The notes under the pieces: generated by a model
The model's input: only the letters and a program-made list of their open reading frames with translations
Databases searched by the model: none
What the model was told of the DNA's origin: nothing
NCBI GenBank assembly: GCA_002695025.1
Contig: NZNV01000023.1
Location: 186,001-250,000 of the forward strand
DNA from: Owenweeksia sp.
Lineage (GTDB): Bacteria; Bacteroidota; Bacteroidia; Flavobacteriales; Schleiferiaceae
Length of the DNA stretch: 64,000 bases
Direction of reading: 5' to 3'
Position numbers and translations under genes: made by a program
Part shown: piece by piece, positions 8,828 through 62,299 of the stretch
How positions within the stretch are numbered: position 1 is the stretch's first letter
Layout: each line of letters starts with the position of its first letter

Positions 8828-9063
8828 TGATCACTCGTTAGGAACAACTTAGCTGTATTAAAAAGATCCAAACGCCTATCTACGTTAGATACTGATCTGC
8901 ATGTTTGAACATGATCAATCAAGATCATGGAAACGGAGATGATGCTAAAAGGGGCAAATTGCCAAGACAAAAGCCAGCTATAGGCGATGTGATCATCTAT
9001 CAAAAATGACCTTTATTTGCAGCCGCAAAAAAAACTGCATCACCTTAACCGATTTTACGTTTC

Positions 9064-9741: not shown

Positions 9742-9857
9742 ACTAGACCTATTTAATATTTATTTTAATAGATTCAATCTATAATTGTTAAGTGTAAACT
9801 ATTGAACTTCTTTAGCGATACCTGTTATTTTACTAAGGAATTCAAAAACTACACAAT

Positions 9858-38427: not shown

Positions 38428-38991
38428 TCAGTCTTTGGAGAAATACTCAAAGATCAGGTGAATCCTATCTGTTTTACCTCTATTCTCAGCCCAGTGCATA
38501 GCCAGGTTGTTCACCTCATAAGCCTGACCTTCCAGCATTCTGAAAGGTTCCTCATTCACAAAAAAGTAGCACTCCTCATTGGTTTGCAGCGGCACATGAA
38601 TTTTATGCGAGAGGCGGGCGGCATTGGAACCATCAATATGTTTGTGAATGAGCGTGCCGGCCGGGAGCTTGGCCAGCATGATCCTGGGATAAGCACCACG
38701 GGAGTAGTTATATGCCTGAGTGGCCTGGTCTAAAACCGGCTGTAAAACCTCTTCCCACTCTTCCCACACCGGACGGTTGTAGTAAAAACGATTGGTGTTG
38801 GAATTAACGATAAAGCGGAAAACAATATGCCTGGTTTTGTTCAACGCCCCAAACTTATTGGGTTTATCTTCATTTTCCTCCTCCCAAACCTGTTCTTCCA
38901 GCTTCGAGACCATTTCCCTGAGCTTTGTAATATCTACTTCACCTAAATGGCGAACGGTTTTCGGTTTATCGGGAGCTTTTACATTCTTCAT
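38428..38991 (-). CDS. Aspartyl/asparaginyl beta-hydroxylase-like 2OG dioxygenase (copy 2)
   Basis: 187 residues and clearly paralogous to the gene at 37171: the same IMLAKLPA, HKHID, HKIHVPLQTNEE and RIHLIFEYF blocks. Likely iron ligands are His118 and His166, with Arg176 for 2-oxoglutarate. Its start overlaps the stop of the upstream permease-VCBS gene by 4 bases, so the two are one transcript. Possible targets are a peptide side chain or a lipid; neither can be decided from sequence. Confidence 0.78.
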   Translation of the reverse strand: MKNVKAPDKPKTVRHLGEVDITKLREMVSKLEEQVWEEENEDKPNKFGALNKTRHIVFRFIVNSNTNRFYYNRPVWEEWEEVLQPVLDQATQAYNYSRGAYPRIMLAKLPAGTLIHKHIDGSNAARLSHKIHVPLQTNEECYFFVNEEPFRMLEGQAYEVNNLAMHWAENRGKTDRIHLIFEYFSKD

Positions 38992-41900
38992 TTCTCAATC
39001 CCTCCTGCCCATAAAACCTCACCTTTCTGTGTCCTGGAAATGATATAACGGTTACCGGAACTTAATTCCTGATCAATTACCGTTCTTTCTCCGGTAGACC
39101 ACACAATTTCCACACGGCTTACTTTCTCATGTTCTCCCAGCCCAAAATGAAGAAGAGGGGCATCAAATGACCGAAAACCTCCTCCCAGCTGCACTTCTTT
39201 CATTTGGTGATGATCGTTGCCATAATAAATGAACACTTTACTGCCAATGCCGGCCCTGTTTCCCTTTTCATCGTGAAGCTCAAATTGTACCGCCTTATTT
39301 CCGGAAGTGTTGTTGGTATAAATGTATACCGGACCGATAGCCGGCACCGAAACAATGTCCATATCGCCATCATTGTCAAGATCCACGTAGGTGTAACTAT
39401 TGGCCGGCAGGTAATTGATCAATCCGGATTCTGCGGTCTGCTCTTTAAAGTGCTTTCCTTCTTCATTGATCATCAACACATTAGACTCCATACGGTTGTG
39501 AGAACGATAGAAGGTGCCGTTTACCGCATAAAGGTCTTTATACTCATCATTGTTAAGGTCAGCAAACTTACCGTTCCAGGTCCACGAAGTAGATGCCAAA
39601 CCATAATCCCGCGCAACATCCGTAAACTGCCCTGTGGAATTCCTTTTAAGCAAAGCATTCTCCTTACTGAGTTCCGGATTTTCCAGGTAAAAACTCATCC
39701 GCTCCTTTGATATGAACTGATCATCCTCACGGGGCTGGTGGTAGTACATTTTTTCCAGTTCTTTCCATCCTTCGGGATAAACACCTCTTCTACGACCGGA
39801 CAGGAACTGATCATGCTTCAATACCGCCAAGGCTACACAATCATTCAATATAGAATCATCACACTGGGAGATATCTGCACGGATAGCGGCTTCTGCCAAT
39901 TGGTTTTTCATACGGAACATGCGCTGCAGCTGTTCACGCTCCTTTTTGCGTTTGATGGATGCAAAAGCTTCTTGCTCATCGCGTACTTTAAGCTTTGTAT
40001 CAAACCCTAACTCACTGATTTGGGTCAGGAAGATCTCCGGGCTCAGGTCATTGTCAATGTCTTCGGAGGCAATGCTCATGGTTCTTTTCAAACTTCCCTG
40101 AACGAGTTTGTCTTTTGCCGAAACTAAAGATATTGCTCCGGCTCCATTTCCCAGGTAATACATATCAGGGATGTTAAAGTCAATCCCAAAAATAAGGTCG
40201 GGATTGCCATCCATATTGAAGTCTGTAACCAATGCAGACAGCGTTTCTCCTGACATTTCATCCAATACCGTGGATGTCCAGCCCCGGGTATTACTCACCA
40301 GTAAGGCATCCCTTGAGGAGTAATAGGTTCTATTCCTCACTGAGTTTACCCCCAGGCTGAAGTTACCCAAGGCCATATCCAGTTTACCATCTTTATTTAC
40401 GTCACCAAAGGACAGCCCTACCGTTAGAGGCGCTTCATTTTCATTGGGCAGGTGTGCTATATTTTCAGCGCTGTAGGCACCGTTTTTACTGTACAGTATA
40501 TAGTTACCATACCAGTAAGTGGTCAATACAATATCCAGGTAATCATCATTATTCATGTCTACCAGTACCGCATTCCCTATCCAGTTGGTATCTATCAATG
40601 GAATAGTGAGTTTTTGTTCTTCAAAATACTGCCCCCCTCCTTTATTCAGAAATAGGTTTATACCCTTATCTCCACTAAGCAATATGTCCGTCCAGCCGTC
40701 CCCGTTAACATCGCCAGTGGCTATACTCCTTCCGTCTGAATACGGCTGAATAACCTTAAGCGCAGAAAATTCATATGGTGGATCTATACCGGCCTCCCAA
40801 CCTTCACGAACAGAAAAAAGAGCATCCCCCTCCGAAACCTGCTCTTTAAAAGGAATTCTGTGAATTGTCACATCTCCCTGCTTTGACACCAGGATGGTGT
40901 CACCGGCTGCCATCGTCAGTGCCGGACCCTTATTTACATTTTCCAGTTCTGGTTTTTGAATCACCAAAGGTTTTGAGTCCGCCCGTTTTGAAAAAACCGA
41001 TATTTCCTTTTCAAAGTAATCAAAGTATCTATCCTCCAAACCCTGCGCGGCCAACCCACCCATTACGCCAACCAACACCACTCCCAACGCAGTACTTACA
41101 GCCACCTTTGAAGAGATGGCCTGCCGGGTAATAAGGAAAGAATAAACGCTGAAGATGCCGAGGGTAAAAAGAAGGACCATGCTATAGTGTATCGGCAAAC
41201 CTCCCGCCACCAGCGTGGAAACAATGATCACATCAAAACTCATAGGAACCGGAAGAAAAACCCCGATAAGCCCCAAAACAAGCATGGCTGAAATAATCAG
41301 GAGCAGATTGCTCTGAGGCAGCATTTCCGCAAAGGTATTCCATGGTAAGACGGTAATCATGATCGCACCCAGTAAACCGGCCAGGAGCATCAAGGGCACA
41401 GTAGTTCTTATGATATACCACAAGGCTTTAAAATACGAAGTGAAGGTCCAGCTGAAGGCTCCGCCCCAAGAACGGGCTAATAATCCCGTATCCGGCAAGG
41501 ACAAAGCAAAAAAAGCTGGCTTACTTATACGGTCTTCTATCTTGTGTAAATCGCTTACTGATACCGGGGCTTTGCCAAATAAATACGAAATGATGGGGAC
41601 CCCAATCAGGATAAACCCCAGCGTTAACCCCAGCTTTAGCAAGGCTACATAAAAAGGGAATAACGAGAAAAGCATGGTGAGTACGATGACATTAAGAGTT
41701 GGGGAACTCAACATCATGGCCAGGGAAGTTTCCACCTTTGCGCCCGATTTACTGGCCCCCTGGGCAATGGGAGCGGCACAGTTAACGCATACGCCAAGAG
41801 GAGCTCCAAATAGCAACCCAAAAAAAGCGTTTACAAAGCGATTATTGGATTGCCAATCTTTTATCAGGGTAAACAACAGCATCAGGGCAGCTGCAAACAA

Positions 41901-42152
41901 TATCCCAAAGGTCATTCCCTTCCAGTTGGTATGGTACCAGTTTGCGGTATGAGCAACCGTTTGCATCCACCAACTATCGGTTGGGTCTACCTCCATAACC
42001 ACGTCAAAGCCTATACCGGAGGTAGACACAGAGCCTTCCATTATAGCTTTTTCATCCAACGCGGGATAACGTGATTGGGTCCAGAAAAAACCACCGATCC
42101 CGATCAGTAGCAAAAAGACCAATAAAAGAGGTTTATTCTTCAGGAAGCTCAA
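38988..42152 (-). CDS. Permease (PF03773-like) fused to VCBS repeats and ASPIC/UnbV domain (copy 1)
   Basis: 1054 residues from a TTG start. The first third (about 1-375) is a polytopic membrane permease of the ArsP_1/DUF318 type, with the signature GAPLGVCVNCAAPIAQG and the later LPVPMSFDVIIVSTLVAGGLP. A long VCBS/FG-GAP beta-propeller follows, with loops such as DVNGDGWTD, DMNNDDYLD, DVNKDGKLD, DFNMDGNPD and DLDNDGDMD. It is interrupted by a charged helical insert with a Cys pair. The C-terminus is an ASPIC/UnbV domain (GIGSKVFIYYGNDHHQMKEV, in part). A close paralogue is at 55129-58284. Transport substrate is unknown. Confidence 0.82.
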   Translation of the reverse strand: MSFLKNKPLLLVFLLLIGIGGFFWTQSRYPALDEKAIMEGSVSTSGIGFDVVMEVDPTDSWWMQTVAHTANWYHTNWKGMTFGILFAAALMLLFTLIKDWQSNNRFVNAFFGLLFGAPLGVCVNCAAPIAQGASKSGAKVETSLAMMLSSPTLNVIVLTMLFSLFPFYVALLKLGLTLGFILIGVPIISYLFGKAPVSVSDLHKIEDRISKPAFFALSLPDTGLLARSWGGAFSWTFTSYFKALWYIIRTTVPLMLLAGLLGAIMITVLPWNTFAEMLPQSNLLLIISAMLVLGLIGVFLPVPMSFDVIIVSTLVAGGLPIHYSMVLLFTLGIFSVYSFLITRQAISSKVAVSTALGVVLVGVMGGLAAQGLEDRYFDYFEKEISVFSKRADSKPLVIQKPELENVNKGPALTMAAGDTILVSKQGDVTIHRIPFKEQVSEGDALFSVREGWEAGIDPPYEFSALKVIQPYSDGRSIATGDVNGDGWTDILLSGDKGINLFLNKGGGQYFEEQKLTIPLIDTNWIGNAVLVDMNNDDYLDIVLTTYWYGNYILYSKNGAYSAENIAHLPNENEAPLTVGLSFGDVNKDGKLDMALGNFSLGVNSVRNRTYYSSRDALLVSNTRGWTSTVLDEMSGETLSALVTDFNMDGNPDLIFGIDFNIPDMYYLGNGAGAISLVSAKDKLVQGSLKRTMSIASEDIDNDLSPEIFLTQISELGFDTKLKVRDEQEAFASIKRKKEREQLQRMFRMKNQLAEAAIRADISQCDDSILNDCVALAVLKHDQFLSGRRRGVYPEGWKELEKMYYHQPREDDQFISKERMSFYLENPELSKENALLKRNSTGQFTDVARDYGLASTSWTWNGKFADLNNDEYKDLYAVNGTFYRSHNRMESNVLMINEEGKHFKEQTAESGLINYLPANSYTYVDLDNDGDMDIVSVPAIGPVYIYTNNTSGNKAVQFELHDEKGNRAGIGSKVFIYYGNDHHQMKEVQLGGGFRSFDAPLLHFGLGEHEKVSRVEIVWSTGERTVIDQELSSGNRYIISRTQKGEVLWAGGIEK

Positions 42153-42338: not shown

Positions 42339-43262
42339 ATGGCCGAGGAAACCAAGCGATTTTATTATTACGCAAACGGGGTGTACCTTGATTCCTGCAT
42401 GAAATTCCCGGAGCTAACACCGGCCTATCCATCATCAGAGAAAACCGTTGTAAAAATAGAATTTGGGCAAACCCCGGAGAAACTTGAAAACCTGAAGGCA
42501 AAAGGAGTTCGATTCCAGGCTGCACCAAATGAATTTTTGCTTCCTATTGATGATGTAGCAACTTTTTGGGTAAAGAACGGGGATCATATTATCATCCAGC
42601 CAGAACCGCGGGTGAATGAATCGGAAATAAGAGTATTCTTCCTGGCCTCCGCAATGGGTGCTCTGGCTCACCAAAGAAGACAATTTCCTTTACATGCCAG
42701 TGCCATTATGTATAACGGCAAGGCCATACTGTTCTCCGGAGATTCAGGTGTAGGAAAATCAACCCTGGCGGGTCTATTTCATAAAAAGGGGTATCAGGTT
42801 ATTACCGATGACATTTCAATTATTGATAAAGAGAAAAATACCGGACAACTGTTGATAGAGCCGGGTTATATTCAGCTGAAGCTATGGGAAGACACCATGA
42901 ACAGCTTACACATTGGTAAGAAGGAAGGGGTCCTGCTCAGACCCGGCTTAAAGAAATATGGCTACCCGATAAGCAGTATCCCCAAAAAACCATTGGAAAT
43001 CCAGGCTATTTACGCTCTCAGCGTATACCCGGGCAAGGAAATATTAGTCAGACCCCTGGAAGGCTGGGAAAAGTTCAGACATATCAAAAAGCGTACATTC
43101 AGACAGAAATTAGTAGACCCTATGGGCTATACAGAACCCCACTACCGGCTACTGGAGGATATCTGCCAATCATTGCCCGCATTCCAATTACAACGCCCTT
43201 TTGAAGAGGGTTACACGACATTTGTTGAGTTTGTTGAGAATCACTTTCAAACCAACCAGTAA
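42339..43262 (+). CDS. HPr-kinase-like lasso peptide kinase
   Basis: 307 residues. A beta-rich N-terminal part is followed by an HprK-type P-loop kinase domain: LHASAI (His119), Walker A GDSGVGKST (134-142), and TDDIS (157-160), the acidic pair used in metal binding. No N-terminal HPr-kinase regulatory domain or HPr-loop signature is seen, and no PTS genes are near. Kinases of this form occur in lasso clusters of the paeninodin type, where they phosphorylate the C-terminal Ser of the precursor. The precursor found at 46369 also ends in Ser. It begins a + strand run that goes through the cyclase gene. Confidence 0.85.
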   Translation: MAEETKRFYYYANGVYLDSCMKFPELTPAYPSSEKTVVKIEFGQTPEKLENLKAKGVRFQAAPNEFLLPIDDVATFWVKNGDHIIIQPEPRVNESEIRVFFLASAMGALAHQRRQFPLHASAIMYNGKAILFSGDSGVGKSTLAGLFHKKGYQVITDDISIIDKEKNTGQLLIEPGYIQLKLWEDTMNSLHIGKKEGVLLRPGLKKYGYPISSIPKKPLEIQAIYALSVYPGKEILVRPLEGWEKFRHIKKRTFRQKLVDPMGYTEPHYRLLEDICQSLPAFQLQRPFEEGYTTFVEFVENHFQTNQ

Positions 43263-43274
43263 GGCTCAGGAAGT

Positions 43275-44108
43275 ATGGGAAACATTATCTGGTTATGTTC
43301 ATACCCAAAATCAGGAAACACCTGGCTACGCCTGTTTTTATGTGAACTTTTATATCCTCATAATAGCAATCAGCCTTTTTACCTGGATCCTATCCCTACC
43401 GCTACAACACGGTCTTTACTGGATCATTATGCTGATGTTGAACTTTCAGACCTTACCGACCATGAGGTTCGCGAGCTTCGTCCGCTCTTATACGAAGAGC
43501 TATCTTCCAAGGCCGGGGAGACTGTTTTTTTAAAGCTGCACGATGCCTGCTCCCGGACTCCAACCGGTAAGCCATTGATCTCTCAAAATGCCACAAAGGG
43601 AATGGTATATATAGTCCGCAATCCTTTGGACATAGTCGCCTCGTACGCATTTCACCTGAATAAGACGATAGATGAAGCCATCGCAAAAATGAATGAACAG
43701 GAGTCCATTGCCAGTGCGAAGGATAAATTAAACCCCCAGATACCCTATTTGCTGGGAAGCTGGAGTTACCATGTGCAAAGCTGGCTGGAAAATGATTATG
43801 CTATACCGGTTTTTGTATTGAAATATGAGGATTTATTTGCTGAGCCCGTGAACTGGTTTTCTAAGGTTCTCAATTTTGCCCATCTCCAGTGCACAGAAGA
43901 TGAAATTATCCGGGCTATTGAGGCAACTGATTTTCAAAAGCTAAAGGAAGAGGAAGATCAAAATCCATTTCCGGAAAAACATATAAATGCTCCCAGGTTT
44001 TTCAGGAAAGGGCAGGTCCAAAACTGGAGAGAAGAATTAAGTTCCCAACAGGTTAACCGCATTATTTCAGATCATGGCAAAATGATGAAGAAATTGGGAT
44101 ATCTGTAA
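43275..44108 (+). CDS. Sulfotransferase (Sulfotransfer_1 type) in lasso operon
   Basis: 277 residues. The PAPS loop YPKSGNTWLR (10-19) is a textbook 5'-PSB of cytosolic-type sulfotransferases. VYIVRNPLDIVASYAFH carries the 3'-phosphate Arg/Ser, and RKGQVQNWREELSSQQV is the C-terminal RKGxxGDWK-like motif. It lies 12 bases after the kinase gene and 39 before the B1 gene, so it is likely co-expressed and may sulfate the lasso product; Tyr13 or Ser15 of the core would be candidates. That role is inference. Confidence 0.85.
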   Translation: MGNIIWLCSYPKSGNTWLRLFLCELLYPHNSNQPFYLDPIPTATTRSLLDHYADVELSDLTDHEVRELRPLLYEELSSKAGETVFLKLHDACSRTPTGKPLISQNATKGMVYIVRNPLDIVASYAFHLNKTIDEAIAKMNEQESIASAKDKLNPQIPYLLGSWSYHVQSWLENDYAIPVFVLKYEDLFAEPVNWFSKVLNFAHLQCTEDEIIRAIEATDFQKLKEEEDQNPFPEKHINAPRFFRKGQVQNWREELSSQQVNRIISDHGKMMKKLGYL

Positions 44109-44147: not shown

Positions 44148-44432
44148 ATGGCGGATAAAATAAAACCCGGATCCATTATCCGGAGAAACAGCGAAATAAT
44201 TGGCTCTGATATTGACGGTGAGACTGTGATGATGAGCGTGGCCAACGGGAGGTATTATGGCATAAACCAGGTTGGAAGTAGTATATGGCACCTGCTACAT
44301 GAACCCATGCAGCTGGAGTCCATTTATGCAGCATTGCAAGAGGAATACGAAATTGACCCCGAGACATGTGAAAGAGAGGTACTGGTATTCCTGGAAGACC
44401 TGATGAAGAACAATATCATCATCGTAGATTAA
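44148..44432 (+). CDS. PqqD-family leader-binding protein (lasso B1)
   Basis: 94 residues covering a whole PqqD/RRE fold: IIRRNSEIIGSDIDGE, the strand pair MMSVANGRYYGINQVGS, SIWHLL and the helical end. Stand-alone proteins like this (lasso B1) bind the leader through its Y/WxxP motif and deliver the precursor to the B2 peptidase. The gene is 15 bases before the cyclase gene. B2 is not adjacent but is found as the C-terminal domain of 36021-37172. Confidence 0.9.
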   Translation: MADKIKPGSIIRRNSEIIGSDIDGETVMMSVANGRYYGINQVGSSIWHLLHEPMQLESIYAALQEEYEIDPETCEREVLVFLEDLMKNNIIIVD

Positions 44433-44447
44433 ACATTATAAAGCCGG

Positions 44448-46325
44448 ATGAGTGCTATTTGCGGTGTTTGGCATAAAAACAAGGAGCCGGTCACCCATGC
44501 CTCGCTGGAAAACATGCTTCAGGTACTGGATTACTGGGAAGCTGACGCCAGGGGAAGGTTGATCCGATCGGATATTGGCCTGGGTCACCTTTTACTGTTC
44601 AATACCCCGGAGTCCTTCCACGAAAAGCAACCTCTGGAAGACTCCTCCAGCGCAATTCTCCTGACGGCCGACCTTCGCCTGGATTATCGGGACGACCTAA
44701 AAAACAAGCTGGACATCCCCGTAAGTGCGGAAATAACCGATGCAGACTTACTCATGCTCGCCTATAAAAAATGGAAAAGCGATTGCGTGGCTCACTTGTA
44801 TGGCGACTTTGTTTTTGCCATTTATGATCCCGGTGACGATGCTTTCTTTTGCGCACGCGATCACATAGGCGTCAAATCCATGGTTTATTACCATGATAAT
44901 CAAACTTTTGCATTTGCTTCCGAAATCAAAGCCTTACAATCCCTGGATGATGTAAAATACCGAGTCAGGGATCAGTGGGTGCTGGATTACCTGGTTCATA
45001 TTATTGCCGACAACACATCCACGGCATACGATACGATCTTTAAACTGCCTCCCGCACATACTTTGCTTATTACCCGAAATGATACGCCCGTATTAAAACG
45101 ATACTGGAGTCTTAATGAAACATCATCCGTTCAGTATAACTCAGAAAAGGAATGGATAGACGCGCTGGAAGAAAAAATGGCTGCCGCTGTTAAAGAAAGA
45201 TGTCGGTCAGCCTTTGCAGTGGGCAGCGAACTGAGTAGTGGGGTTGACAGTGCTGCCATCACTGCCCTGGCCCAAAAGATCACAGCTGGCATAACCTCTT
45301 TTTCCAATGTCATGGATGAGGAAAATATGGCTGAAGTAAATCCATTTGAGGATGAACGTGAAGGCATTTTGTCTGTCATTCAGCACTGCGAAATCCAGGA
45401 TTATTTTCTTCTTTCAGGAATGGATTATCCTGTTTCTGCCTTACTCAGCGAGATGGATGACCTTTTTGACACCCCTCCTTTTTCGTATAGCGGCATTTTC
45501 TTCGATGCCATCTACCGGGAAGCACATCAAAAGGGTATTCGCACCTTGCTCTCAGGGGCAGGAGGTGATGAGTTGGTTACCTCAAGAGGAAAAGGTTATA
45601 AAAATCAGCTTTGGAATAATCGGGAGTACCGTAAGCTCTATAAGGTTATACGGAACGGATACTCATCTCACCCGTTTAAGAGCTTCATATCTTTTGCCAT
45701 TAAGCAAAATAAAACCATGGGCAGGCTTCTGCGCAAACGCTCCGTTAAGCCTCATGGGTATTATCGCTGGCAAAACATCAAAACCGAAAATATTGACGTT
45801 ATCGCCCTGAAGCAGCGCATTGAGCAACTCAAAAGAAAACCGTCCCTCCATTCCATTAGTGCGTCTCAACGTCAACGATTGAACAACCCCGCAATTTCAA
45901 CCGCTCTGGAGAACAACGAATTGCTTGCCCGCAGCAGGAAAATAGAATACCGATACCCCATGTATGATATTCGCCTGATCTCCCTGGCTTACCATATTCC
46001 AGAGGCTCTTAAGATGAAGGATGGGAAAAATCGTTACCTCTTTCGCAAAGCCTTATCCCCCTATCTTCCGGAGGAAATCATCTGGAACTACGGAAAGAAG
46101 AGAATTTTTAGTGCCCCCTCCGTGTATCAACGGATCATCGCTGACCGGGCGTCTATTGCGAGGTTGATACAGCAGATCCCGGAGACCAACCCTATTCACC
46201 AACTGGTACATATAGATAAAGCCTGCGGTATTATCCAAAGCTTTAAACCCGAAATGGTTAACCATAAACCTTCACAGGTTAACGGGGCATTACAGATGTT
46301 TTTTTTAGCTTGCTTTTTAAAATAA
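44448..46325 (+). CDS. Asparagine-synthetase-like lasso cyclase (C protein)
   Basis: 625 residues: an N-terminal class II glutaminase-like domain (1-200) and a C-terminal ATP-pyrophosphatase domain with ELSSGVDSAA (261-270), the PP loop that adenylates the acid side chain. In lasso clusters this enzyme activates the Asp/Glu side chain and joins it to the core's first amine. The normal catalytic Cys2 is absent: the protein begins MSAICG, so the Cys is at position 5 and glutaminase activity is unlikely, as expected for a lasso cyclase. The precursor gene starts 44 bases downstream. Confidence 0.88.
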   Translation: MSAICGVWHKNKEPVTHASLENMLQVLDYWEADARGRLIRSDIGLGHLLLFNTPESFHEKQPLEDSSSAILLTADLRLDYRDDLKNKLDIPVSAEITDADLLMLAYKKWKSDCVAHLYGDFVFAIYDPGDDAFFCARDHIGVKSMVYYHDNQTFAFASEIKALQSLDDVKYRVRDQWVLDYLVHIIADNTSTAYDTIFKLPPAHTLLITRNDTPVLKRYWSLNETSSVQYNSEKEWIDALEEKMAAAVKERCRSAFAVGSELSSGVDSAAITALAQKITAGITSFSNVMDEENMAEVNPFEDEREGILSVIQHCEIQDYFLLSGMDYPVSALLSEMDDLFDTPPFSYSGIFFDAIYREAHQKGIRTLLSGAGGDELVTSRGKGYKNQLWNNREYRKLYKVIRNGYSSHPFKSFISFAIKQNKTMGRLLRKRSVKPHGYYRWQNIKTENIDVIALKQRIEQLKRKPSLHSISASQRQRLNNPAISTALENNELLARSRKIEYRYPMYDIRLISLAYHIPEALKMKDGKNRYLFRKALSPYLPEEIIWNYGKKRIFSAPSVYQRIIADRASIARLIQQIPETNPIHQLVHIDKACGIIQSFKPEMVNHKPSQVNGALQMFFLACFLK

Positions 46326-46368: not shown

Positions 46369-46521
46369 ATGAGAAATTCCAATGGTGATAATGTAGCTAG
46401 CAGCAATTCCGGGAAGGAATTGAAAAAATGGGAAACCCCAGTATTGCATCAAGAAGATTTCCGTGCTACCCAGGGGGGAGGTCCTATAGGTCCTGTTGAG
46501 AACCAATTCTATAATTCGTAA
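46369..46521 (+). CDS. Lasso peptide precursor (A)
   Basis: This 50-residue gene starts at ATG 46369 and stops at TAA 46519-46521. The leader (1-35) contains KKWETPVL (19-26), matching the Y/WxxPxL motif bound by lasso B1 proteins, and ends ...ATQ, with Thr34 at the conserved penultimate position. The predicted core is GGGPIGPVENQFYNS: an N-terminal Gly, Glu at position 9 for a Gly1-Glu9 macrolactam ring, and a six-residue tail NQFYNS. The C-terminal Ser suits the HPr-like kinase upstream. The core's sequence, cyclase neighbour and promoter agree, but there is no homology search behind this call. Confidence 0.85.
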   Translation: MRNSNGDNVASSNSGKELKKWETPVLHQEDFRATQGGGPIGPVENQFYNS

Positions 46522-46632: not shown

Positions 46633-48054
46633 TTGTTATTCAATACCCTGGATTTCGGCATTTTCTTTTCCATTGTCTTTGCTCTTTACTGGACACTGGG
46701 TAAAAAAAGTGTAAAGGCCCAGAACTACATTCTTTTACTGGCCAGTTATTTTTTCTATGGTTATTGGGATTGGTGGTTCCTCATTTTACTTTTTATCAGC
46801 TCGGCTACTGATTTTTTAGTGGCCATACTACTCGATCAGACTTCTTCTGCCCGAAGGCGCAAACTCTTGCTGAGTATAAGCCTTATCGTAAATCTTGGGC
46901 TACTGTTTTCCTTTAAGTACTTCAACTTTTTTATTGGATCCTTTATTGAGAAATTCTCGTTTGCCGGATTTGTTTTCACCCGCAATGATGTAAGTTTCAT
47001 ACTTCCCATCGGCATCAGCTTCTATACGTTACAAACCCTCAGTTATACCATTGATGTATACCGCAAACATATTCCTGCAACCCGGAATTGGGTCGAGTTT
47101 TTTACCTACGTAAGCTTTTTTCCCCAGCTAGCCGCAGGCCCCATTGAAAGGGCCGGTAAAATGTTGCCACAGTTTAAGGTGTTACGATCCTTTGATTACA
47201 CAGCCGCCAAAGACGGTATGCGTCAGATATTACTTGGCTTGTTTAAAAAAATAGTAATTGCGGATGCCTGTGGACGGCAAGTTGATCTTATTTTTTCGGA
47301 TTATCAGAATCTCAACGGCAGTACACTTTTTATAGGTGCCATCTATTTTCTATTCCAGGTTTACGGTGATTTTTCAGGGTACAGCGACATGGCTATTGGC
47401 ATGGGCCGTTTGTTTGGACTAAAGCTATCTCAAAACTTTCACTATCCCTTCCTCGCCAAAAACCCACGTGAATTGTGGCAAAGGTGGCACATCTCCCTCA
47501 CCACCTGGTTTCGGGATTATGTATATATCCCCCTGGGCGGAAACCGCCAGTCGGAGTTCCGGACCCAGGTTAACCTACTCATTGTTTTCTTACTAAGCGG
47601 ATTGTGGCATGGGGCTTATTGGACTTTTATAGTATGGGGAGCAATACATGGCGTGGTCTTTCTTTTCCACCGGAACCTATCCACGCTAAAACCTCTTAAA
47701 ATCATGGGTTTCTTTCAAAAGTCTACTCGCCTGACAGGTTTTATATCTGCCTTGACCGTATTTATTTACTTTTCCTTATCCGCAGTATTCTTCAGATCAG
47801 CCACCGTTTCGGAAGCTCTGGATTATTTCCGCCATTTATGGAGCCCTTCATTATTCACTATCCCTCAGCATTATAGTAAGGTCTTTATCCTGTTACCTTT
47901 TATCCTCTTTGAGTGGTACCAAAGAGATCAAACGCACGCCCTGCAGATAGGTAACTGGAAAACATGGCAACGCTGGGTGACTTACTACCTTTTTATGGCC
48001 TTAATATCCTATTACTTTACCACGGAACGTTCCTATATTTATTTCCAGTTTTAG
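46633..48054 (+). CDS. MBOAT family O-acyltransferase
   Basis: 473 residues with about ten membrane helices. The start is TTG, chosen because MLFNTLDFGIFF matches the usual MBOAT beginning. Conserved LWQRWHISLTTWFRDYVYIPLGG (His286 region, in part) and GLWHGAYW with catalytic His326 place it in the AlgI/DltB-like group that moves acyl groups across the membrane to glycans or other surface acceptors. An SGNH-like protein at 52495-53520 may be its partner. Confidence 0.88.
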   Translation: MLFNTLDFGIFFSIVFALYWTLGKKSVKAQNYILLLASYFFYGYWDWWFLILLFISSATDFLVAILLDQTSSARRRKLLLSISLIVNLGLLFSFKYFNFFIGSFIEKFSFAGFVFTRNDVSFILPIGISFYTLQTLSYTIDVYRKHIPATRNWVEFFTYVSFFPQLAAGPIERAGKMLPQFKVLRSFDYTAAKDGMRQILLGLFKKIVIADACGRQVDLIFSDYQNLNGSTLFIGAIYFLFQVYGDFSGYSDMAIGMGRLFGLKLSQNFHYPFLAKNPRELWQRWHISLTTWFRDYVYIPLGGNRQSEFRTQVNLLIVFLLSGLWHGAYWTFIVWGAIHGVVFLFHRNLSTLKPLKIMGFFQKSTRLTGFISALTVFIYFSLSAVFFRSATVSEALDYFRHLWSPSLFTIPQHYSKVFILLPFILFEWYQRDQTHALQIGNWKTWQRWVTYYLFMALISYYFTTERSYIYFQF

Positions 48055-48167
48055 GTTAATAACCGGCCAGCAAGAGCAAGCCTGGCCACTCATCACGAAA
48101 TTCCCGGGATTTTTACTTTATGGTGAAAAGCCGGTTGATCTTTGAACTGTACTCCGCTTGAGAAATA

Positions 48168-48175
48168 TATCTTTG
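48168..48175 (+). promoter_or_regulatory. Bacteroidota-type -7 promoter element for the GT2 operon
   Basis: TATCTTTG matches TAnnTTTG exactly, 19 bases before the ATG at 48195. A TTTG at 48141-48144 could be the -33 element, although the 23-base spacing is longer than the usual 19-20. Confidence 0.5.
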
Positions 48176-48194
48176 AGTTCTTAACTTAGGTTGT

Positions 48195-49106
48195 ATGCTT
48201 TCGGTTATTGTTCCCATCTTTAATTCGGCTGACACTCTTCCTGCTTTGTGTAAAGCAGTAATGGATGAGCTAAGCGGAATAGACTATGAGATAATCCTGG
48301 TGAATGATGGCAGCACCGATCAAAGTGAACAGGTTGCCACAGTTCTGGCTCAAACTCATTTGCCTGTCCGCCTGATTTCCCTGCGTAAGAATTTCGGAGA
48401 GCATAACGCTGTCATGTGCGGTCTGAATAAATGTGTGGGTGATTATGCGGTTATCATAGATGATGACCTGCAAAATCCTCCTTCTGAGATACGAAAACTT
48501 CTCATTACTACCCAAACGGGAGGCTATGATGTGGTATACGCCCGGTACGATCAAAAAAAGCATAGTTTCTGGCGCAATAAGCTGGGTAAAATGAATAATT
48601 ACCTGGCCGGCAGGATGTTTAAAAAGCCCAAAGGGTTGTACCTGAATAGTTTTAAGATCATCAGCCGTGGCGTAATTGATGAAATCATAAAATATACCGG
48701 CCCCTTCCCGTACATTGATGGTTTGATATTTCGCTGTACCCATAACATCGGAGCTGCTACGGTGGTCCATGAAGCCCGCCATAAAGGGCACTCAGGCTAC
48801 ACCTTCAGAAAGTTGTTCAGGCTCTTCTTTAATATGTTCTTCAACTTCTCCATACTACCGTTAAGGATTTTCACCATTCTGGGTTTTCTGGTATTCCTTA
48901 CGGCCTTTGTTCTTTCGGTGATCTTTGTTGTACAAAAGATCATGGATCCTTCCATCGAGGCCGGCTGGACATCACTTATCATAGCCATACTGGCGCTTAG
49001 CGGGGTCCAGATTATCTTTATGGGCCTCATTGGGGAATACCTTGGAAAACAGTATCTCGATCAAAATAAAACCCCGCAATGGGTCATCAGGAAGCAAGTA
49101 GAGTAA
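48195..49106 (+). CDS. GtrB/DPM-like glycosyltransferase (GT2)
   Basis: 303 residues. A GT-A domain has VIVPIFNSADTL, VNDGSTDQS and the metal-binding DDDLQNPP, followed by two C-terminal membrane helices (about 220-290). This layout is that of polyisoprenyl-phosphate glycosyltransferases such as GtrB, which load undecaprenyl phosphate with a hexose for use on the outer face of the membrane. The polytopic protein at 49878 could be the matching outer-face transferase. Confidence 0.9.
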   Translation: MLSVIVPIFNSADTLPALCKAVMDELSGIDYEIILVNDGSTDQSEQVATVLAQTHLPVRLISLRKNFGEHNAVMCGLNKCVGDYAVIIDDDLQNPPSEIRKLLITTQTGGYDVVYARYDQKKHSFWRNKLGKMNNYLAGRMFKKPKGLYLNSFKIISRGVIDEIIKYTGPFPYIDGLIFRCTHNIGAATVVHEARHKGHSGYTFRKLFRLFFNMFFNFSILPLRIFTILGFLVFLTAFVLSVIFVVQKIMDPSIEAGWTSLIIAILALSGVQIIFMGLIGEYLGKQYLDQNKTPQWVIRKQVE

Positions 49107-49129
49107 AGTCTGCATCAGCCTATACTCCC

Positions 49130-49888
49130 ATGATGCAAAAACAGGAGGAGTATGAAAAAATGGCTGCCGTGGAACGGGATATGTGGTGGTTTAAAGCCCT
49201 GCATCAGCAAGTGTACAGCGCTATACGGAAACAGTTTTCCTCAACCAGCATAAAGATCCTCGATGCCGGATGTGGCACCGGTGGATTGATAAGTTACCTG
49301 CAGGAGAAAGGCTATAATCATGTACAGGGGTTTGACCTTTCCGAATACGGCTTGCAATTTTGCCGGCAAAGAGAGCTTGACGTCTGGGAGGGTAATGTAA
49401 CACATGTTCAGGAATATGCCCCTGAAAATTCCCTGGATGTAATTATCTGCAATGATGTATTTTGTTACCTCACCAAAGAGGAGCGCCTGTCTACTATAAC
49501 GTCCTTTCAAAAGCTACTTAAAAAAGGAGGCTTGCTCATTATGAATAATGCCAGCCTAAATGCCTACCGGGGTAAGCACGATATTGCCGTGGGAGTGGGC
49601 CAGCGTTTTTCCCGGAAAAGGATCCTAACCTGGTTTAAGGGTACAGCATTCAGGCCCTTACAGGCACGATACTGGCCTTTGCTGCTGGCACCCATCATCT
49701 TTGTATTCCGAAGCGCTCAACGTGTGAGTAACCGTAATGCGTCATCCCTGGAAACACAATCGGATGTAAAGCTTCCTGCTTTATGGATCAACAGACTTCT
49801 GCTCCGAATTACACAAATGGAATTGAAACTGTTCGACACCGCTTTTACGGGCAGTAGCTTCTTCATAGTAGTCAAGAATGGAGAATAA
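49130..49888 (+). CDS. Class I SAM-dependent methyltransferase
   Basis: About 252 residues from the ATG at 49130; an upstream ATG at 49079 would overlap the GT2 gene by 28 bases. The SAM-binding loop is ILDAGCGTGGLISYL, with the acidic strand-2 end in QGFDLSEYGLQFC and post-I VIICNDVFCYL. The N-terminal EEYEKMAAVERDMWWFKAL resembles methyltransferases found in sugar and polyprenyl pathways. The 3' end overlaps the next gene by 11 bases. Confidence 0.82.
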   Translation: MMQKQEEYEKMAAVERDMWWFKALHQQVYSAIRKQFSSTSIKILDAGCGTGGLISYLQEKGYNHVQGFDLSEYGLQFCRQRELDVWEGNVTHVQEYAPENSLDVIICNDVFCYLTKEERLSTITSFQKLLKKGGLLIMNNASLNAYRGKHDIAVGVGQRFSRKRILTWFKGTAFRPLQARYWPLLLAPIIFVFRSAQRVSNRNASSLETQSDVKLPALWINRLLLRITQMELKLFDTAFTGSSFFIVVKNGE

Positions 49889-51617
49889 GCACACCATATC
49901 CGGTAAAGGGTCTTTTTTGCCCTATTTTATTCTATTGGCCACCATAGCACTGGGGCATTTTCCACTCCTGCTCAGCGACTCCATTTTAGGCGACAGCATC
50001 ATCAACTACCACCTGGCTTTAACAAACCATCACAAATACATACAGGCTTTTTATAATGCTTATGCTCTACCCATACATGGCTACATTGCCTATCTGGTCA
50101 GTTTTTTCCCCGCGATCTTTTACTATAAGCTAACGGCCTTTATTTTCCTGATCCTCATCGCTGCTTTTCTCTATCATCTATTCAGCACGCTTAAACTGTT
50201 CAGCCAAAGGGATAACCTCCTAACCTCATTACTGGCCATTACATTCCCCGTTTACACCATGTGGAATGAAATAACCACGCTGCCCTACCTTATCAGCTAT
50301 GCTTTCTTCCTGGCTGGGTTCTGCCTTTACATCTATAGCTCCCGCCTTATTTATTTTATTTTATGCCTTATTCTTTGGTCCGTTGCTTTTCAACTGTCAT
50401 CACTTCTTTTACTTTTTTATGTGGTAGTGGCCGGTATCTGGCTGCAACAGGAAAAAGTGAGCCTTGGGGATTTCAGGAGTTGGCTTTTGGCCTGCCGGGA
50501 TAATTTACTGCTGCTGCTCTTTCCGATCTTCTACTTTTTGTTCTTAAACCTTTTCTTTCCCGGAAACAGCTATCAATACAACACCATTGACTTTTCAGGG
50601 AAAAAGCTGCTTAAAAACACAGTAATTAGCTTTTATGGAACCTGTATAGAACCCTTTAGCCATTTCTTTCATTTTGCCAGCATTGATGCAAAAACCGCTC
50701 TTTTCATCATCGCCATAGTAACGGTTGTGCTGTTCATTATATACAGGATCATCCGCCAAAACTTTGAAAACCAGACTCACCGGAAAAGAAATGCAAATAT
50801 TCAAAAGGTACTATATGCCTTATTGTTAATCTTTTGCGCAGCTATTCCTTACCTATTGGTCGGGAAACCGATCAGGGGTTTTGCCTATGAGTCCAGACAT
50901 GCCCTACTCCTGGGACCGGGCTTTGCTATTCTTCTGTTTATCTTCTTGCAAAGATATTTCGAAGCCAAAGGCACTTTAGCCACCTGGCTAGTGATAGGCC
51001 TTTTCACTTCCATGAACCTGGTGAACCACATCTTGTGGCAAAATAGATCCATTAAAATACAGGCTATTGCTGAAAACCTCCCTCGCACAACAGACACCAG
51101 TGACCGGGTCCTGTTTTTCTATGATAAGGTGCCTTTAGGAAGCAGGTTCAAGATAAAAGAGATTGAACTTCACTATTGTGCTATCCAGACATCAGGTATA
51201 TATAACCAGTACCCCTATCTACTGAACACCGATTACACTTCCCTGGTAAAGAGGATTTATTCTCCTCCCATTAATTGGTACAAGGTATTTTGTTACCCTT
51301 GGATCATGGACCAAGCTAAAAATCAGGATCTCCTTATCAGCCCCAGACTGGAGCAACGGTTAATGAAGCGGACACAACGTAAGCACATTACCAAGATCAA
51401 CCGGACTTACCGGGATATTCATTTGAACGGGTTTACCGATAACATCTACGATGCATCGCAGGCCACGGGATGTATAGTTCATGAGTTGATGCCGGGGAGA
51501 GAGTTGAAAGAAGGAGAAATATTCCTCCAATATATTTCAGGCAGTAGTGCAGAAAGAAAAGAGTTGCTACAGTCACTCATTTACGTTAAAACCCATCATA
51601 TTGAGTGGGAGAACTAA
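49878..51617 (+). CDS. Polytopic membrane protein, possible GtrII-like glucosyltransferase
   Basis: 579 residues with roughly ten membrane helices and a C-terminal soluble part from about residue 395. The first external loop carries DSILGDSIINYHLAL, an acidic stretch of the kind GT-C fold transferases use for catalysis. It resembles the glucosyltransferase domain family Glucos_trans_II in layout, and the GtrB-like gene two genes upstream supports that idea. No motif proves activity. Confidence 0.5.
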   Translation: MENKHTISGKGSFLPYFILLATIALGHFPLLLSDSILGDSIINYHLALTNHHKYIQAFYNAYALPIHGYIAYLVSFFPAIFYYKLTAFIFLILIAAFLYHLFSTLKLFSQRDNLLTSLLAITFPVYTMWNEITTLPYLISYAFFLAGFCLYIYSSRLIYFILCLILWSVAFQLSSLLLLFYVVVAGIWLQQEKVSLGDFRSWLLACRDNLLLLLFPIFYFLFLNLFFPGNSYQYNTIDFSGKKLLKNTVISFYGTCIEPFSHFFHFASIDAKTALFIIAIVTVVLFIIYRIIRQNFENQTHRKRNANIQKVLYALLLIFCAAIPYLLVGKPIRGFAYESRHALLLGPGFAILLFIFLQRYFEAKGTLATWLVIGLFTSMNLVNHILWQNRSIKIQAIAENLPRTTDTSDRVLFFYDKVPLGSRFKIKEIELHYCAIQTSGIYNQYPYLLNTDYTSLVKRIYSPPINWYKVFCYPWIMDQAKNQDLLISPRLEQRLMKRTQRKHITKINRTYRDIHLNGFTDNIYDASQATGCIVHELMPGRELKEGEIFLQYISGSSAERKELLQSLIYVKTHHIEWEN

Positions 51618-52467
51618 AATAGCGTTGGCCACAGTATGCACACCCAATTTTATAAAGGGTACCCAGGCATTATTCTATAGTTTCCTGAAACATCATCCTA
51701 CTTTAGATATTGACCTGGTGGTTATCTGTGATAAAGGCTTTACTCCCTTCAGGAAAACCCTCAAAAGATTGGATATACGCTTTCACCAGGTAAGCGATGA
51801 ACTTACTGAAGCTATCCACCATTTTGAAAAAGAAAGCAATACCCAAGGTAAACACACCTCAGCACGATTCTATAGCCTGGAGCTTTTCAGGATCGGGGAT
51901 TATCAAAAAGTCCTTTTCATGGACAGCGACATGATCTGCCAAAAAGGATTTCCCGAATTATTTGACCGAACCGGTAATTTTTATGCCGCCCCCGACCGGG
52001 TTTTTTATAATGGCCTGGTACGAAATTCTGAAACCTATAAAATTATATCTCCGCATTCAGGAAACCAGCAAAAAGTAATCAGCCCTACCTTTAATACAGG
52101 CTTTATGCTCATTGGCCGGTCTTATTTAAACTACCCCACTTATCAAAAGCTTGTACACTCCCTCTACGATTACGAGTGGAGAAAAATGATGCCGGGCCTG
52201 AATGACCAGATCATCATAAATCAATATTTTAAAGGTCAGATCGAAACACTGCCGGTACATTATAATTACCTCTTAAAAATTCAAGACACCATTTTGAGAA
52301 AAGAGGGTACACCGGCTGGTGAGAGCAAAGTCTTGCACTGGGTTGGAAATCCTAAACCATGGAACTTTAAAAAGGTGGCAAGCCGTTTACTACGCAGAAA
52401 AAAAACACCCCCGGAGTGGCTCACATGGTTAAAAAGCTATACCGGCTATCACATGAATAGGCGCTAG
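51601..52467 (+). CDS. Glycosyltransferase family 8 protein
   Basis: About 288 residues from a TTG at 51601 that overlaps the previous gene by 17 bases; GTG 51547 is an in-frame alternative. GT8 features are IALATVCTPNF, the DxD metal motif in LFMDSDMICQ, FNTGFMLIG, GLNDQIIIN and HWVGNPKPW near the end. Members add hexoses, often galactose or glucose, to LPS cores or other surface glycans. It is cytosolic and belongs to the glycan operon. Confidence 0.85.
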   Translation: MSGRTKIALATVCTPNFIKGTQALFYSFLKHHPTLDIDLVVICDKGFTPFRKTLKRLDIRFHQVSDELTEAIHHFEKESNTQGKHTSARFYSLELFRIGDYQKVLFMDSDMICQKGFPELFDRTGNFYAAPDRVFYNGLVRNSETYKIISPHSGNQQKVISPTFNTGFMLIGRSYLNYPTYQKLVHSLYDYEWRKMMPGLNDQIIINQYFKGQIETLPVHYNYLLKIQDTILRKEGTPAGESKVLHWVGNPKPWNFKKVASRLLRRKKTPPEWLTWLKSYTGYHMNRR

Positions 52468-52494
52468 GGCAAATCGTGTATTTTTGCGAATACG

Positions 52495-53520
52495 ATGAAG
52501 CGTTTTCTCTTAAAACTCTTAGGACTTATCCCTTTTTTTCTGATCATTGGAGCAGTCAATTATTCTATTGACAGTAAAAATTACATCACGGAAAACGAAC
52601 AATTAAACGAGGCTGCAGAGCAAATTATGGCGGGAAAGTTAATCGCTACCCGTGAACGGCTTTTACAGCATGATTTTGTAAAACGCTATATTGACAGGCG
52701 AGGAAAGAAAGATGAAGTAAATGTAATGGGAAGCAGCAAATGCATGGTTATTGACTCCAGTTTTTTTCCACGATCGTCCTTTTTTAATTATTACGTATCC
52801 AATTCCAGTTTTGTTGAATATCTGGCTATTACCTATTGGCTGGATGAAAAAGACTTACTGCCGGATACACTGATCATGGAGCTATCCCTCTCACAATTCC
52901 ATAATATGTACACCGGACAACCGGAGTATTATTATGATGCCTGCAAGACCTTTTGCAATCAATTGAACATACCTCCTCCTGATATGGAGGGCTCACCCCA
53001 CAAATCTGCCGCCTATCACCTCTTTTCCCTTTCTTATTTCTTTCTTAACCTTCAGCAGAATAAGAGCGAGAAGTATTTTGTAACCCGTGACCCCCATCTA
53101 AAGAACCATTTTGTTCTACAGCCCGATGGCAGCCTATGGGTTGGTCAATATCTTCAACTGAGTAAAGAGGAAAAGAAAAGAAGAGTTCAGGACCCCACGG
53201 CAGACAAGCTAGAGTGGATCAAAAACCTCGACCCCAATGTGAAACAGGGTTTCAGGGCATTAATTGAGTTTCTCCAAAGCAAACATACCACAGTTATCCT
53301 GTACCTTCCACCTTACCACCCAGAGACCTATCGCCTTTATGTAAAGGACAACCCCCTCTTTGAAGAACTTAATTCCCTGAGCAACGAATTACAATCGGAG
53401 TATAAACTTGAAAAATTAGGCGCCTACAACCCCTATGAACTACAGTTGGATGACCGTTATTTCTATGATGCGTTGCATATCAGTAAAGAAGGGTTTGCGA
53501 AAATCTGGGAGTCGGATTGA
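52495..53520 (+). CDS. SGNH/DltD-like protein, probable MBOAT partner
   Basis: 341 residues. One N-terminal membrane helix (about 5-22) anchors a periplasmic domain. MGSSKCMVIDSS is a GDS/GSS-like nucleophile region, and FYDALHISKEGF near the C-terminus carries a DxxH pair, as in SGNH/AlgX-like hydrolase folds. Such proteins often accompany MBOAT acyltransferases; an MBOAT gene lies 6 kb upstream in the same direction. The family assignment rests on two short motifs. Confidence 0.55.
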   Translation: MKRFLLKLLGLIPFFLIIGAVNYSIDSKNYITENEQLNEAAEQIMAGKLIATRERLLQHDFVKRYIDRRGKKDEVNVMGSSKCMVIDSSFFPRSSFFNYYVSNSSFVEYLAITYWLDEKDLLPDTLIMELSLSQFHNMYTGQPEYYYDACKTFCNQLNIPPPDMEGSPHKSAAYHLFSLSYFFLNLQQNKSEKYFVTRDPHLKNHFVLQPDGSLWVGQYLQLSKEEKKRRVQDPTADKLEWIKNLDPNVKQGFRALIEFLQSKHTTVILYLPPYHPETYRLYVKDNPLFEELNSLSNELQSEYKLEKLGAYNPYELQLDDRYFYDALHISKEGFAKIWESD

Positions 53521-53592
53521 GGCATTGGATACTGGCAATCAACCAAAGTTGTAGTTATAGGTAAGCATGGTTTAATCAAGGAAGATGTCCGT

Positions 53593-54297
53593 ATGAATGA
53601 TAATCTTAAAAATTTTCTCGTCTCCATTATTCCGGGCAAAACGCTTAGCTACCTTTACCTGGCTCAGCCTTCACAAGCTATAAAAATAGAGAGCCTTAAG
53701 CTTGTATATATTCCCATCCCTAAAGTGGCCAACCGTTCTATTAAGAGCTGTTTAGCTCACGAACTTGATATGCCTTATGTTATTAGTGCACACAAGGCAA
53801 AATGGGATTTAATTCCTATCCATCAGTTACCCCTTGAGCAATATTACACCTTTGCCTTTGTTCGAAATCCTTTGGACAGGTTGGTTTCCTGCTACAACCA
53901 AAAATTTAAGCAGGGAAATACAAACCGCCTTTTTTGGAAGTATGGAAAGATCCTAAATCCTAGAATGAGTTTTGCCGAGTTTGCCAGCTTTGTTGTTGAC
54001 ACTCCTGATGCTTTATCCGACAGACACTTTAAATCACAACACACTTTCCTGTATCACAACAATCATCGGGTTACGGATTTCATAGGAAGATTTGAGCTGC
54101 TTGATGAAGATTGGGATAAATTAGCGTTGCGCTTTAAATTACCTCCCTTGCCGCATTTCAATAAGTCAAGCCGCAAGGAGATGCGGGAATATTATGATCT
54201 CAACCTGGCCGAAAAAGTTAGTTCGAGATACAAGAAGGATATAGAGTTGCTAGGTTATCAAGAAAATACGGACCAATTACTTAACGAGTTGCAATGA
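53593..54297 (+). CDS. Sulfotransferase (Sulfotransfer_2 type)
   Basis: 234 residues. LVYIPIPKVANRSIKSCLA holds the PAPS loop (IPKVANRSIK), a form frequent in carbohydrate sulfotransferases, and FAFVRNPLDRLVSCY is the 3'-phosphate segment. It is cytosolic. Together with the next gene it forms a sulfotransferase pair between the glycan genes and the second permease fusion. Confidence 0.8.
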   Translation: MNDNLKNFLVSIIPGKTLSYLYLAQPSQAIKIESLKLVYIPIPKVANRSIKSCLAHELDMPYVISAHKAKWDLIPIHQLPLEQYYTFAFVRNPLDRLVSCYNQKFKQGNTNRLFWKYGKILNPRMSFAEFASFVVDTPDALSDRHFKSQHTFLYHNNHRVTDFIGRFELLDEDWDKLALRFKLPPLPHFNKSSRKEMREYYDLNLAEKVSSRYKKDIELLGYQENTDQLLNELQ

Positions 54298-54354
54298 ACA
54301 GAGGAATGAAATGGTTCTATGTGATTTCATCGCGGGAAAATTTAGCATAAGCAG

Positions 54355-55119
54355 GTGAAAAAGTTAATCCGTTTCCAGGAATCCTTTAATTTTCAGAGTT
54401 TTCTACGCACTACTCGTCTGCTTAATAGTCCCATTATCATCGGTGGCTGCGCACGCTCCGGCACCACTTTATTGCATGCAGTTTTAGCGGCACATCCTAA
54501 AATCCAACCCGTGCTGGCCGAGTCTCGCATCTTCAAAAAACACCCTTACTCCTTTCGCTTCCTCAATACTATTTACCACCGCTTACTTATTTTAAATCAC
54601 CTGGTAAGGTACCCGGTAAAACCATCTGCTGAGAGGTGGATGGAAAAAACACCTCAAAATGTACTTTACATTGAAAACATATTGCGGGAATTCAAGGAGC
54701 GAGTATACGTTATCCACATTATACGGGATGGCAGGGATGTGGTAACCTCCCGGCACCCTTCACTTCCGGGGGAATATTTCGTATCGCCAGAACACTGGGT
54801 AGAGCAAGTTACAGAAGGGCTAAAGTGGAAGGATCACCCCAGGGTCATAACCCTGAAGTATGAAGAGCTGATCATGGATTTTGAAAAAACAACCCGTGAT
54901 ATTCTATCTTTGCTGGCGCTTGAATGGACCGAAGAGGTTAAAGATTTTCAAAGGCATACACCAGTTCAGTATCCCCGCTCTTTAAAGGGGAGGATTGAAC
55001 CCGTAAACAGTCTTTCGATTGGTAAGTGGAAAGAAGAGGTTCATGAACATCGTATACACGAATTCTACCAATGCAGAAAAGCGGTAACATTACTCAACAT
55101 TCTCGGCTATAATAATTGA
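54355..55119 (+). CDS. Sulfotransferase (Sulfotransfer_3 type)
   Basis: 254 residues from a GTG start. The PAPS loop is GGCARSGTTLLHAVL and the 3'-phosphate motif is IIRDGRDVVTSRHP. This differs from its neighbour at 53593, so the pair are not recent duplicates. Nine bases separate it from the permease-VCBS gene, suggesting one transcript. Confidence 0.85.
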   Translation: MKKLIRFQESFNFQSFLRTTRLLNSPIIIGGCARSGTTLLHAVLAAHPKIQPVLAESRIFKKHPYSFRFLNTIYHRLLILNHLVRYPVKPSAERWMEKTPQNVLYIENILREFKERVYVIHIIRDGRDVVTSRHPSLPGEYFVSPEHWVEQVTEGLKWKDHPRVITLKYEELIMDFEKTTRDILSLLALEWTEEVKDFQRHTPVQYPRSLKGRIEPVNSLSIGKWKEEVHEHRIHEFYQCRKAVTLLNILGYNN

Positions 55120-62284: not shown

Positions 62285-62299
62285 CCGGCTTTATAAAAA

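Follow-up and report, generated by a model that had tools for sequence, protein, structure and literature searches.

A probable 15-residue lasso peptide precursor and its proposed scattered, paeninodin-like pathway with added sulfotransferases

Does the 50-codon frame that follows an asparagine synthetase-like gene in this DNA from Owenweeksia sp. encode a lasso peptide, and which of the surrounding genes would make and modify that peptide? Genome mining had previously named Bacteroidetes an underexplored source of lasso peptides (PMC7533575, citing Tietz 2017). We have analysed the frame together with the window around it, i.e. the whole stretch of 64,000 nucleotides. We put at about 0.85 the probability that the frame encodes a precursor from which a scattered paeninodin-like pathway with added sulfotransferases makes a 15-residue lasso peptide. 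Genomes (G), contigs (C) and related loci (L) are given by number where they have to be told apart.

The precursor reading frame

The frame (46369-46521, forward strand) starts with ATG and encodes 50 residues, MRNSNGDNVASSNSGKELKKWETPVLHQEDFRATQGGGPIGPVENQFYNS, with the leader at 46369-46473, the core at 46474-46518 and the stop codon at 46519-46521. The leader contains a WETPVL box of the [YW]xxPx[LIV] type, which begins at -15, and it ends in Thr34-Gln35 ahead of Gly36, which places Thr34 at -2. The 15-residue core, GGGPIGPVENQFYNS, begins with Gly36 as residue 1, has Glu9 as its sole acidic residue and ends in Ser15.

A sequence-only reading had proposed a lasso precursor here from this motif, and the frame, the box, Thr at -2, Gly1 and Glu9 were all recovered on re-reading. 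Its hand-summed mass of 1517.70 was also correct, with a computed [M+H]+ of 1517.7019 for the dehydrated core; the computed [M+H]+ values are 1597.668 with HPO3 and 1597.659 with SO3 added. It had placed the frame 44 bases after the cyclase gene, and the position holds, whereas the gap between the end of the cyclase frame (46325) and the precursor start (46369), both on the same strand, is 43 bases. In all likelihood the frame codes for a new, short lasso peptide. Its precursor adds one more member to an already known class. The Gly1-Glu9 ring, the threading and the phospho and sulfo masses of the product are predictions from sequence.

Lasso genes around the precursor

The cyclase gene C (44448-46325, forward strand) encodes an asparagine synthetase-like protein of 625 residues (PF00733 at E 4.4e-40, and GATase_7), a probable lasso macrolactam cyclase. 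Its assignment as a lasso cyclase in the sequence-only reading agrees with NF033535 as the top family (E 9.9e-124), though its 414 bits lie below the curated cut-off of 525; the cyclases of L053 and L055 also score below this cut-off. B1 (44148-44432, forward strand) is a PqqD-type leader-binding protein (RRE) of 94 residues that reaches 93.5 bits with NF033536 (cut-off 80) and has solved relatives in the PDB (9x90, and TbiB1, 5v1u).

Altogether the window holds a complete A-B1-B2-C-D-K-N set, with kinase, B1, cyclase, B2, ABC exporter and nucleotidyltransferase besides the precursor. The exporter D (58291-59994, reverse strand, 567 residues, PF00005 and PF00664) has a 48% identical ABC protein in the lasso locus L055. 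The NTP_transf_5 nucleotidyltransferase N (59987-61162, reverse strand, 391 residues, PF14907 at E 2.5e-48) has a 40% identical protein in L055 and a 30.5% identical one in L053. Since the set is spread over 25 kb and both strands and is intermixed with exopolysaccharide-type genes, the membership of the outlying genes is uncertain. B1 has one match in its own genome, and so has B2; asparagine synthetase matches on contig C13 (26-27%) were for this reason set aside as non-lasso.

The kinase and the sulfotransferases

The kinase K (42339-43262, forward strand) is an HprK-like peptide kinase of 307 residues that matches TIGR04352 at E 2.2e-8, below the cut-off. It carries the residues listed for lasso kinases (PMC10368454), i.e. 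the His, GxxGxGKS and DD. All motif residues are kept in seven of the eight aligned kinases, and L055 has DN for DD.

Next to the kinase gene lies ST1 (43275-44108, forward strand), encoding a PAPS sulfotransferase of 277 residues (PF00685 at E 3.1e-30). Its SYPKSGNTW, K-x-H and RNPxD motifs, which we take to comprise the PAPS-binding motif and the catalytic His, are kept in 8/8 aligned members and read SYPKSGNTW, KLHDA and RNPLD in the window. The best solved relatives of ST1 are phenol sulfotransferases, followed by Teg12/Teg14; SULT1A1, Teg12, Teg14 and StaL are all among the best-scoring ones, from E 2.6e-14 (an aryl sulfotransferase, top) to about 2e-7 (StaL), but act on different substrates. 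Teg12, Teg14 and StaL act on glycopeptide antibiotics. Adjacent kinase and ST1 genes were found in the window and in seven of 37 loci (L053, L054, L055, L057, L058, L060 and L064), which represent six genomes, as L054 and L055 share one contig.

A second sulfotransferase domain is part of the B2 protein itself. The frame at 36021-37172 (reverse strand; PF17784 at E 1.1e-36, PF13471 at E 4.4e-20) joins a Sulfotransfer_4-type domain (residues ~45-227, profile match 46-164) to a lasso B2 leader peptidase (residues ~240-383, profile match 252-377). The B2 part scores 83.4 bits with NF033537, above the cut-off of 33, and the B2 Cys and His are kept in 12/12 aligned B2 sequences; these 12 gave no clear candidate for the third catalytic acid, which was not counted as a defect. 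An AlphaFold model built with 11 sequences has two confident domains (mean pLDDT 81.5, pTM 0.55) and low confidence in residues 1-40 and 228-236; judged from the model, the true start may lie later, inside the listed frame. In a fold search of the PDB the fusion matched through its sulfotransferase half, with the caprazamycin enzyme Cpz8 first and fluke sulfotransferases thereafter (query TM about 0.4), and there was no B2 structure among the best 50 of 746 matches.

When the full-length fusion was searched against 395 genomes of the class, 36 had some match, and both domains were spanned only in the own genome and in G237 (48% identity). In G069 the sulfotransferase and B2 are separate genes, and the sulfotransferase frame starts one base after that of the cyclase. 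A nucleotidyltransferase fused to B2 has been described for some Firmicutes clusters (PMC8498205). The literature matches listed, in which subscription journals are mostly uncovered, included no report of a sulfated lasso peptide, a B2-sulfotransferase fusion or a lasso sulfotransferase beyond the cluster genes in PMC4289311 and PMC8498205. As far as these searches reach, the sulfotransferase-B2 fusion together with the kinase-ST1 pair is a new variant.

Neighbouring tailoring candidates and exopolysaccharide-type genes

Two further genes abut at 37171-38420 on the forward strand and encode possible tailoring enzymes, an Asp/Asn beta-hydroxylase-like protein (37171-37794, PF05118) and a Sulfotransfer_2-type protein (37794-38420, PF03567). 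A second beta-hydroxylase-like protein (PF05118) is encoded at 38428-38991 on the reverse strand. Relatives of the first hydroxylase or of its paralogue occur in the lasso loci L053, L054, L055 and L058 and, weakly, in L064. The Sulfotransfer_2-type protein has a 52% relative in L054 and a 36.6% relative in L058, where it adjoins a hydroxylase gene in the same arrangement (8576-9792). The adjacent genes hint at hydroxylation followed by sulfation. In two related loci JmjC_2 proteins adjoin the kinase (L053, 11050-12228; L055, 12083-13264), and L053 has a 2OG-Fe(II) oxygenase near its kinase (10067-10792); these proteins are further candidate tailoring enzymes.

Exopolysaccharide-type genes (MBOAT, GT2, GT8, epimerase, Wzi-like) at 46633-55119 and 61172-63898 interleave with the lasso genes. 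The sulfotransferases and hydroxylases could belong to an exopolysaccharide locus that was invaded by lasso genes, in which case the peptide would be phosphorylated or unmodified and not sulfated. Relatives of the epimerase (58.6%), the Wzi-like protein (60.3%), MBOAT (43%) and GT8 (29%) lie near the lasso genes of G237 as well, the first three being the shared genes that speak for this view, and the window has more sulfotransferases at 53593 and 54355. On the other hand, the kinase-ST1 pair recurs in L055, L057, L058, L060 and L064, whose examined stretches show none of those exopolysaccharide relatives, and two genera have a sulfotransferase domain joined to the B2 protein. We regard an invaded exopolysaccharide locus as unlikely and favour a lasso pathway with sulfotransferases of its own.

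Precursors of related loci

The sequence-only reading was to be given up if homologous short genes beside related cyclases were lacking in other genomes; such genes are present, and the reading stands. In other genera, short frames with the same leader box adjoin relatives of the B1, cyclase or kinase gene, at 14435 in L053, 9714 in L055, 5890 and 10069 in L057, 7858, 8024 and 11385 in L058, 11985 in L060, 16490 in L064 and 10211 in L061. The searches gave no direct orthologue of the window core. With Thr at -2, a box at -15 or -16 and an acidic residue at 7-9 are seen in L055, L060, L061, two of the three L057 frames and four of the five L058 frames; residue 1 of these precursors is Gly or Ser, and most of them have cores of 14-16 residues with short tails.

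Other frames do not follow this rule (L053, L056, L064, L140 and one frame each of L057 and L058), and the L059 precursor fits only with a core of 24 residues. By the Thr -2 rule the cores of L053 (14435-14608, forward strand; GGGGGPSPSGDDSTTYDS) and L140 (6976-7152, reverse strand; GGTLSCNSPGDDSWYTS) lack Asp or Glu at 7-9 and have their first acidic residues at 11 and 12. Their sequences would imply either a larger ring than usual or a different cleavage. No precursor was found within L054, though the kinase-ST1 pair is present there; the precursor-type frame of L140 lies ~9 kb from the L054 cyclase. A frame in L125 shares EDFRxT and 7/15 leader positions with the window precursor, and the L125 stretch examined held no cyclase.

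The precursor peptides compared were selected from the scans by eye, and each of the 16 has Ser or Thr as its last residue. Among loci with ST1 and a precursor, five of seven have Tyr as the third-last residue (the window, L053, L055, L057 and L058), or six of eight if the L140 frame is assigned to L054. Within these loci it is found in one of the three L057 frames and in four of the five L058 frames; it is absent from L060 and L064. The residue is third from the end in 0/14 loci that have a kinase and a cyclase and lack ST1 (L059, L061, L062, L063, L117, L118, L120, L122, L123, L124, L126, L131, L134 and L135); the count leaves out L121, L128 and L132, where no precursor was picked, and L125 and L136, where no cyclase was shown. 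For 5/7 versus 0/14 Fisher's test gives a one-sided p of 0.001, a value to be read with the loci being related, the precursors chosen by eye and the hypothesis drawn from the same data. With these restrictions, and with L060 and L064 as exceptions, we rejected the Tyr-x-Ser/Thr correlation as proof of Tyr sulfation. As L060 and L064 have ST1 and no Tyr at this position, Tyr third from the end is not the target of every ST1.

L117, L118 and L120 also have a kinase. Their precursors contain a KQGG stretch, and their last residues are His-His or Cys-Arg; lacking Ser or Thr at the C-terminus, they offer the kinase no C-terminal Ser to act on.

Proposed pathway and threading

Genes, domains, motif residues and their recurrence were observed directly, and from these we infer the chemical steps, their order, threading and any activity. 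In the proposed pathway B1 would bind the WETPVL box, and the HprK-like kinase would phosphorylate the C-terminal Ser15 on the linear precursor. ST1 would move sulfate from PAPS onto the peptide, Tyr13 being the most likely acceptor. The sulfotransferase-B2 fusion, held at the leader by B1, would then cut the leader off behind Gln35, possibly sulfating the peptide a second time. Closure between Gly1 and Glu9 would fall to the cyclase and export of the product to the ABC protein D. The nucleotidyltransferase may further modify the phosphate, in the way reported for pseudomycoidin. Phosphorylation of Ser15 is likely by analogy with the chemistry of the paeninodin kinase. Tyr13 as the target of ST1 is a more tentative assignment, which we put somewhat short of an even chance. 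Points that weigh against the proposed pathway are the lasso kinases directed at Ser3, the precursors of L117, L118 and L120, the L053 and L140 cores, and the cyclase and kinase scores below their cut-offs.

The tail after the nine-residue ring has only six residues, and the cyclised product could therefore be an unthreaded branched macrolactam. A core of 15 residues with the ring closed at residue 9 is compatible with such a product, and so are the mostly 14-16 residue cores and short tails of the rule-fitting relatives. In contrast, Phe12 and Tyr13 could serve as plugs, B1, B2 and C are homologous to lasso enzymes, and 15-residue lasso peptides are known. An unthreaded product is, in our judgement, decidedly unlikely, and a threaded lasso peptide is the preferred reading.

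A wider and more doubtful proposal is a dual-tagged lasso family in the host's class, probably Bacteroidia, with phosphate on the C-terminal Ser or Thr, sulfate on a neighbouring Tyr and sulfation tied to leader cleavage through the B2 fusion; L053 and L140 may then close rings of 11 and 12 residues. If the proposal is true, sulfation joins the known tailoring of lasso peptides. A definite substrate and site, open to experiment, follow from the B2 fusion and from the Tyr-x-Ser/Thr ends that track the kinase-ST1 pair.

Comparison with known systems

Paeninodin-type phosphorylated clusters share with the window A, B1, B2, C, D and K, discrete B1 and B2, a core ending in Ser and the kinase motif residues (PMC8498205, PMC10368454). 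In contrast to these clusters, the genes of the window spread over 25 kb and occupy both strands, B2 carries a fused sulfotransferase domain, a kinase-ST1 pair is present and the core is different. An HprK homologue phosphorylates the C-terminal Ser of a linear lasso precursor (PMC8498205). In pseudomycoidin a kinase is combined with a nucleotidyltransferase, which is present in the window too; there, however, B2 is fused to a sulfotransferase and the nucleotidyltransferase is a separate gene (compare PMC8498205).

HPr kinase and sulfotransferase genes beside lasso genes have already been noted in Firmicutes and in anaerobes (PMC4289311, PMC8498205), with the role of the sulfotransferase called unclear (PMC4289311). 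These clusters have the two genes in common with the window, but the accessible text of both papers mentions no sulfotransferase-B2 fusion. The Bsf cluster of Bradymonas has the same A, B1, B2, C, D, K and N set (PMC10368454). Not every lasso HprK kinase modifies the C-terminus; some, that of Bsf among them, have Ser3 as their target, and Bsf has Ile at -2 (PMC10368454). In the window precursor position -2 is Thr, and core position 3 is not a Ser.

Chance occurrence of the frame

The strict lasso motif rule was applied to the short frames of the window (28-80 residues), and the frame at 46369-46521 was the only one of 488 to pass. A looser rule passed four frames, this one and three without an adjoining lasso gene. 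In 60 first-order Markov simulations, with a mean of 767 short frames each and thus more than the real 488, there were 13 strict-rule passes in total, or two when a C-terminal Ser or Thr was also demanded; these counts precede any demand for a place just downstream of a cyclase on the same strand. A chance frame downstream of the cyclase, with the true precursor elsewhere or lost, is highly improbable: a strict-rule frame is expected in about one window in five, or one in 30 with C-terminal Ser or Thr, but this frame sits 43 bases past C on the same strand, its leader resembles those of L053 (7/15) and L125 (7/15, the latter also having EDFRxT), its C-terminal Tyr-x-Ser/Thr recurs in relatives and no second precursor copy was found in the own genome (next match E 0.51).

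An element resembling the Bacteroidota -7 consensus, TATTTTTG, lies ~30 bases before the precursor. It was not used, as TAnnTTTG occurs 20 times on that strand of the window, and a suitably spaced -33 partner was not found there.

Distribution of the lasso genes and of the bracketing paralogues

B1 exceeds the cut-off in 3/395 genomes of the class, 1/346 of the order and 6/395 of the phylum, with the own genome counted in each. In the order (346 genomes, E 1e-10) the own genome was the one above the cut-off, and one weak match was found besides, in G502. The families of G237 (46 genomes), G069 (2) and G194 (10) yielded, at E 1e-15, no cluster beyond those already seen, and the order and family searches gave no close orthologue suited to dN/dS. 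A contig scan with the cyclase as its single query turned up nothing but a remote locus in Lachnospiraceae, at 26% identity, and B1 matched 12 records of the plasmid collection, each below 60% identity. The patchy distribution of B1 would fit horizontal spread.

Two paralogues of ~1050 residues and 42% identity bracket the block, at 38988-42152 (reverse strand) and 55129-58284 (forward strand). Each combines an ArsP-type permease with FG-GAP repeats and with an UnbV/ASPIC domain. Among 295 genomes of the class (E 1e-20) they have relatives in three others, near full length in G204, in two pieces in G104 and over the repeat stretch only in G169.
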